A stretch of 64,000 bases of DNA, from contig OU612066.1 in assembly GCA_914767715.1 (NCBI GenBank), positions 28,308,283 to 28,372,282 of the forward strand, given 5' to 3'. This DNA is from Membranipora membranacea. Its lineage: Eukaryota > Bryozoa > Gymnolaemata > Cheilostomatida > Membraniporidae. The notes below the pieces were generated by a model. It worked only from the letters and a program-made list of their open reading frames with translations, had not been told where the DNA came from and did no database searches. Positions 10,692 through 43,623 of the stretch are shown in pieces. The position numbers were made by a program, and so were the translations under genes. Positions within the stretch are counted from its first letter, which is position 1. Each line of letters opens with the position of its first letter.

Positions 10692-10743
10692 ATGAGCATA
10701 TGCAGGATTTTGTTACTCCTGCTGGCTGTAAAGCTGCTGAAGA
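10692..10743 (+). CDS. Receptor exon 1: signal peptide
   Basis: The ATG opens MSICRILLLLLAVKLLK, a classical signal peptide with a pure Leu core. The exon ends in phase 1 at a GTAAGT donor. No better upstream in-frame start is visible. Confidence 0.85.

Positions 10744-43623: not shown

Follow-up and report, generated by a model that had tools for sequence, protein, structure and literature searches.

Gene Model and Layout of the Locus

The window, i.e., the whole stretch of Membranipora membranacea DNA that was analysed, comprises 64,000 bases, has a G+C content of 37.5%, contains no N and carries split genes of the animal type. On its + strand, between positions 10692 and 43623, we rebuilt a gene of 22 coding exons, all introns being of the GT...AG type, which form a single open frame of 1541 codons. 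An alternative donor of exon 21 at position 42944 (3.8 bits vs -3.3 bits for the donor at 42899) adds 15 residues and leaves the frame open. The 21 exons and 1528 amino acids given by the first-pass annotation are therefore replaced by 22 exons and 1541 or 1556 amino acids. The features of the gene are as follows:

10692..10743, + strand: exon 1, with the start codon and a leader that resembles a signal peptide (MSICRILLLLLAVKLLK)
11854..13069, + strand: LU (Ly6/uPAR, three-finger) domain, exons 2-3 (11854-11939, 12862-13069), aa 20-103; weak Pfam matches and, by eye, a CxxC ... CCxxxxCN pattern
14149..22454, + strand: probable long-form C-type lectin-like (CTLD-like) domain, exons 4-5 (14149-14340, 22227-22454), aa 117-250, interrupted by a 7.9 kb intron; assigned only by cysteine spacing
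22883..23059, + strand: TSP1 repeat upstream of CUB, exon 6, aa 259-314
25017..29914, + strand: CUB domain, exons 7-9 (25017-25204, 26375-26422, 29749-29914), aa 315-447; Pfam match
32236..33626, + strand: six TSP1 repeats, exons 10-11 (32236-33147, 33513-33626), aa 451-789; Pfam match
33629..33631, + strand: TAG stop two bases into intron 11, reached if this intron is retained (possible end of a soluble form)
34906..35012, + strand: Lys/Glu linker, start of exon 12
35013..41581, + strand: five cadherin repeats (EC1-EC5), exons 12-18 and the start of exon 19, aa 827-1357; Pfam match, layout by eye
41570..42899, + strand: membrane-proximal region, exons 19-21 (41558-41757, 42381-42496, 42774-42899 or -42944), with a possible SEA/MAD-like fold
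41738..41749, + strand: RPKR furin-type motif, aa 1410-1413
43487..43623, + strand: exon 22, encoding the transmembrane (TM) helix (by eye at aa 1501-1521) and a basic tail of 20 residues, followed by the stop codon
43922..43927, + strand: candidate poly(A) signal AATAAA, about 300 bases 3' of the stop codon

The model was derived from open frames and splice-site scores, the sites being picked by hand with both frame and domains in view, and the initial exon assembly was out of frame until four donor ends were shifted by 1-2 bases. The consistent phase reported earlier for every junction is thus partly a matter of construction, while the open chain of GT-AG exons stands. Several splice sites are weak: the lowest-scoring acceptors are those of exons 8 (-2.5) and 18 (-1.9), and four donors (33147, 35130, 41757 and 42899) score below 1 bit. 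All six introns located at module boundaries are in phase 1, which is the usual signature of shuffled extracellular modules.

Just two parts of the model, its first exon and the exon 21/22 end, contain windows of 19 residues with a hydropathy of at least 1.5. The C-terminal stretch bears out the TM helix proposed earlier. The leader-like character of exon 1 agrees with the signal peptide that had been proposed, hydropathy being the sole basis of this assignment.

Elsewhere in the window, frames of a possible second, intracellular gene rich in Ser and Lys lie at 47210-56248 (+ strand); KPASVK units in them are encoded by 6.3 copies of an 18-base repeat (47768-47880), and Pfam returned no significant family for the pieces searched. 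A 169-aa open frame with a coiled-coil look is located at 63117-63623 (- strand) and matched no Pfam family over the cut-off. No significant Pfam family was found in the six neighbouring frames searched. Upstream of the gene, the stretches at 1656-1955 (+ strand) and 3387-3710 (- strand) are similar by eye and oppositely oriented, and are likely a pair of transposable elements.

The N-Terminal LU and CTLD-Like Parts

Two related three-finger families, TOLIP (E-value 0.0072) and UPAR_LY6 (0.0099), match the LU part over the whole domain, but both matches lie under the curated Pfam cut-offs, so that the LU domain of the first-pass annotation is retained at reduced strength. The top PDB sequence match is 6r5m_A (E-value 0.02), a three-finger protein.

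Residues 117-250 are probably a CTLD, judging from the arrangement of six cysteines within 134 residues. Their spacings (10-21-74-12-8) fit those of long-form CTLDs, which are roughly 10, 16, 75-80, 13 and 7. Random placement of six cysteines fitted the long-form windows in 8 of 200,000 trials, with windows that were set after the sequence had been seen. No CTLD match was retrieved from Pfam, NCBIfam profiles or PDB sequences; thus, the lectin fold claimed earlier agrees with the cysteine spacing but is undetected by any profile or PDB sequence. Alignments with two human CTLDs were unconvincing (z of 0.06, with 437 of 1000 shuffles scoring as well, and 2.09, with 41 of 1000); when cysteines were held in place in the shuffles, z was -0.11 and 2.00. 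The predicted structure of exon 5 alone, which models about half a domain, had a mean pLDDT of 62 and a best Foldseek E-value of 0.43. No C-type lectin was present among the best 50 of 79 Foldseek matches to this half-domain model, nor in 31 further entries; rotavirus VP8*, a different lectin fold, was among the best 50 of 79. Since the models of exon 5 and of exon 19 (see below) each cover about half a domain, missing fold matches prove nothing in either case. Intron 4, which separates the two CTLD-like exons, carries at 15189-15944 (- strand) two related stretches reading '..SALA.HCQA.SAAR..', probably a dispersed repeat.

CUB and TSP1 Modules

The CUB domain is matched by Pfam with an E-value of 2.9e-10 (40.9 bits vs a cut-off of 21.4), and the later TSP1 array by Pfam TSP_1 with an E-value of 2.6e-68 in six stretches, in full agreement with the modules assigned at first pass. 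At the level of sequence comparison, E-values exclude chance matches for the CUB domain, the TSP1 array and the cadherin part described below. The TSP1 repeat placed before CUB scores 0.034 in Pfam when taken alone, which is under the cut-off, but its cysteines align with those of the six later repeats. Of the "three ligand-binding heads" of the first-pass annotation, CUB is therefore solid, while LU lies under cut-off and the CTLD goes undetected by profiles.

Six TSP1 repeats, i.e., all but the first one after CUB, carry a CxxS/TC O-fucose site, and one more such site lies in the LU part; ten WxxW motifs all fall in the later six-repeat array; and the whole model contains 39 N-glycosylation sequons. 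Tandem repeat arrays with 49-base and 113-base units (26778-27589) lie in the intron that separates exons 8 and 9 of CUB.

Linker and Cadherin Repeats

The Lys/Glu linker that follows the TSP1 array is encoded by a GAGAAG array (34926-34990, 10.8 copies) that is in frame with the coding model. The number of GAGAAG copies may differ between individuals.

Five stretches match Pfam Cadherin (E-value 5.6e-73), as expected from the five repeats described earlier. DxNDN motifs follow EC1 (DINDN, aa 929), EC2 (DCNDN, aa 1034) and EC4 (DVNDN, aa 1249), and DRE is found at aa 896 and 1216. A motif scan of the model revealed no DxNDN after EC3 or EC5; by eye, calcium sites of EC3-EC5 are altered elsewhere too, and DRE is altered in EC3 and EC5. 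From this pattern, the rod is likely stiff at EC1-EC3 and flexible past EC3. The "calcium-dependent rod" of the first-pass annotation thus holds for the motifs that follow EC1, EC2 and EC4 but not for the remaining, altered sites. With at least two consecutive ECs bearing calcium-binding motifs and a membrane anchor (TM from aa 1501), the chain has the features of the cadherin superfamily. An ATTG array of 43 copies (38127-38297) begins 8 bases 3' of the exon 15 donor and could influence splicing of the cadherin part.

Membrane-Proximal Region

An interval of about 140 residues separates EC5 from the TM helix. SEA-like/MAD domains have a ferredoxin-like beta-alpha-beta-beta-alpha-beta fold adjoining the TM helix, and the order read by eye from the membrane-proximal region (strand, helix, strand, RPKR loop, strand, helix, strand) is SEA-like. 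The predicted structure of exon 19 alone, again about half a domain, is strand-helix-strand with a mean pLDDT of 61 and a best Foldseek E-value of 0.92, and the best 50 of 284 Foldseek matches to this half-domain model included no recognisable SEA domain. PDB and profile searches retrieved no match for the membrane-proximal region. A SEA/MAD-like fold is hence put forward as a possible one, i.e., strictly as a hypothesis.

A by-eye match of strands and helices to the CDH23 membrane adjacent domain was also considered. The comparison gave no backing for homology: the hhalign probability was 0.1%, and 896 and 970 of 1000 shuffles aligned equally well or better.

One Chain or Several

Introns fall inside the CTLD-like part, CUB, the sixth repeat of the TSP1 array (TSP1-6) and EC1, and the exons that flank these introns are therefore tied together, while the junctions between modules rest on intron phase alone. 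The introns at module boundaries were scanned for phase 1 first exons that hold a complete signal peptide. Under strict/loose thresholds, the scan gave 0/1 candidates between signal peptide and LU, 0/0 between LU and CTLD, 0/1 between CTLD and TSP1, and 0/0 at each of the TSP1-CUB, CUB-TSP1 and TSP1-cadherin boundaries. Inside domains, the same scan gave 3/10 in intron 4, 0/3 and 0/1 in the two CUB introns and 0/1 in the EC1 intron.

At the boundary between the TSP1 array and the cadherins, the donor of exon 11 is weak (1.7 bits), a TAG would end the chain almost at once if intron 11 were retained, and AATAAA hexamers follow at 33818 and 33939 (190 and 310 bases past the TAG), with an ATTAAA at 34146. 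These signals would fit two adjacent genes, the first coding for a secreted head-and-TSP1 protein that ends at 33629-33631 and the second for a separate cadherin; TSP1-array proteins and atypical cadherins are indeed known separately. A start for the second gene is harder to find. In none of the three phases, and not even at loose thresholds (0.87 expected in phase 1), does the interval 33630-34905 contain a first exon that combines a complete signal peptide with a donor. Eight hydrophobic ATG frames lie in this interval, with donors of -3.2 or lower except for one (1.3), which would supply an 11-residue part of a leader. That short first exon (34594-34627) could make a split signal peptide together with VLALYIIYLYLCLLVVA, a hydrophobic frame that lies immediately 5' of exon 12 at 34857-34907, in frame and without an ATG. 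The acceptor required for this route, at 34858, scores -9.0 and falls under the lowest acceptor of the model (-2.5). The exon at 34594-34627 is the only short first exon found before exon 12, whereas 29 other intervals of similar length averaged 3.3. Hydrophobic frames before acceptors are common here, the maximal 9-residue hydropathy exceeding 2 ahead of 8 of the 14 acceptors that have at least 9 residues of frame. As for the weak exon 11 donor, the model relies on even weaker ones within TSP1-6 (-0.1) and EC1 (-1.4), so that a low donor score does not prevent use in this gene.

A two-gene arrangement could also have its break before CUB, with the second protein starting at about 24905, where an in-frame ATG opens a hydrophobic frame (24905-25016) that runs directly into CUB exon 7 as a possible alternative start. 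This ATG represents no excess, since open in-frame ATGs precede 4 of 15 non-boundary acceptors vs 1 of 6 module-boundary ones. We consider two genes, with either break, unlikely, though this is the most serious of the alternatives. The first-pass annotation had named transcripts with a poly(A) site after the CUB or TSP1 part and a separate start before the cadherins as an example of what would speak against one chain; the sequence has a stop and AATAAA signals after the TSP1 array and no good separate start before the cadherins.

The same TAG, AATAAA signals and weak donor would also fit a single gene with two products: the full-length protein in the membrane and, through retention of intron 11, a soluble version that stops at 33629 and whose poly(A) site would lie around 33.8-34.0 kb. 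Such sites arise by chance, AATAAA occurring 61 times on the + strand of the 64 kb window, and we regard a second, soluble product as improbable, more so than two genes.

Microsatellites beside and within exons, the several weak splice sites and the failure of searches to find close relatives might suggest a decayed gene or an assembly join from which no intact protein is made. A run of 1541 stop-free codons over 22 exons, a window free of N and the completion of each split domain in the next exon all speak against decay or misassembly, which appears very improbable.

A single membrane-anchored chain carrying this mosaic of modules is the best-supported reading of the sequence, favoured also by the presence of just one leader-like and one TM stretch in the model. 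That one transcript encodes one chain, with the form that also yields a soluble product counted in, seems to us quite likely.

Proposed Receptor

Our preferred interpretation, which we hold with somewhat more confidence than doubt, is that the product of the gene is a single type I adhesion receptor with a novel architecture, which furin may cleave. The self-recognition role suggested at first pass found no support in any of the results. From the N-terminus, the chain would consist of a signal peptide, LU, the CTLD-like part, TSP1, CUB, six TSP1 repeats, the Lys/Glu linker, five cadherin repeats, the membrane-proximal domain, the TM helix and a very short tail. A glycosylated TSP1 stalk would carry the LU, CTLD-like and CUB heads well away from the membrane, where they may bind partners in the matrix or on other cells, and the cadherin repeats would serve as a membrane-near spacer, in part stiffened by calcium and in part flexible. 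A catenin-binding region would not fit into the 20-residue tail, and output would therefore go via clustering, a partner or cutting near the membrane. RPKR falls at the point expected to join the second and third strands of a SEA-like domain; cleavage there would produce a pre-cut receptor whose halves are held together noncovalently. In a chimera assay (PMC6586460), regions of PCDH15 and CDHR2 containing SEA-like domains are reported to have stood in for the Notch switch.

One can go further and envisage a three-finger, lectin, CUB, seven-TSP1 and cadherin receptor with a furin-cut SEA-like end, in which head binding and pulling on the rod release the ectodomain, i.e., a Notch-like force switch. 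We offer this as a speculation and consider it improbable.

If one transcript spans all the modules, the protein would be a cadherin bearing kinds of heads familiar from innate-immune and matrix proteins. It would indicate that cadherin ectodomains can be extended N-terminally by ligand-binding modules via phase 1 exon shuffling, and would provide a test case for receptors in which a cadherin rod is paired with the binding of matrix or glycans. Since invertebrates commonly have extracellular mosaics, one more of them is interesting rather than revolutionary.

Relatives and Comparison with Known Systems

Relatives were sought in a collection of 5.8 billion proteins. The 7984 candidates sharing most words with the query were scored, yielding 1064 matches to the full-length query at E-values of 0.001 or lower; candidates were limited in length to 848-2697 aa for the full-length query and for residues 1-450, and to 707-2249 aa for the C-terminal 201 residues, so that short separate relatives or far longer ones are missed. 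The best 120 of the 1064 matches are 43 TSP1-array proteins and 77 cadherins, TSP1 and cadherin repeats dominating the result. A motif and phmmer check of 121 proteins found TSP1 and cadherin repeats joined in none of these best 120 of 1064. This is in line with the earlier statement that no described protein is known to join an LU domain and a lectin fold to cadherins. The LU and CTLD-like parts had no match among the 121 proteins (best E-values of 1.3 and 0.063), the only match to residues 1-450 was a weak one to a cubilin-like protein (E-value 0.11), and no relatives of the C-terminal 201 residues were found in the protein-collection search. The head modules and the membrane-proximal part would then be either fast-evolving or special to the lineage. 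In titles and abstract openings of the literature covered, with most subscription papers outside this scope, we found no published description of the module architecture.

SCO-spondin-like and adt-1-like TSP1-array proteins (for example, P0001 of Mytilus and P0002 of Clytia) share tandem TSP1 repeats with the Membranipora chain, 43 of them among the best 120 of 1064 matches at 32-46% identity over 22-36% of the query, but cadherin repeats are present in none of these 43. SCO-spondin is a secreted protein combining TSP1 arrays with VWD/TIL-type modules. The Membranipora product has the TSP1 array, no VWD/TIL match, and cadherins and a TM helix, a difference that is valid only if it is made as one chain.

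Proteins of the FAT, Dachsous, CELSR and cadherin-23 kinds resemble it in their cadherin repeats (27-33% identity in the 77 cadherins among the best 120 of 1064), and the best PDB chain is CELSR1 8vy2_A (E-value 2.2e-125). They differ in that TSP1 is found in none of these 77, and the Membranipora tail has 20 residues. FAT and CELSR proteins contain many ECs along with EGF and LamG modules, and CELSR has a seven-pass TM region; here there are five ECs, and the Pfam search returned no EGF, LamG or 7TM family. Classical cadherins have a long cytoplasmic tail with catenin-binding regions, for which the tail seen here is too short.

Mosaic receptors of the CUB/TSP1 and CTLD/CUB types share these kinds of modules, but none matched residues 1-450 beyond the cubilin-like protein. 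A resemblance to PCDH15, CDH23 and CDHR2/PCDH24 may lie in a folded domain that is suspected here between EC5 and the TM helix; membrane adjacent domains are described in PCDH24, CDH23 and PCDH15 (PMC8691648). There is no sequence relation to the CDH23 domain, the alignment scoring under the shuffle mean. The gene product would thus be of a known kind, a mosaic receptor or atypical cadherin, in which, as far as tested, this combination of modules is new.
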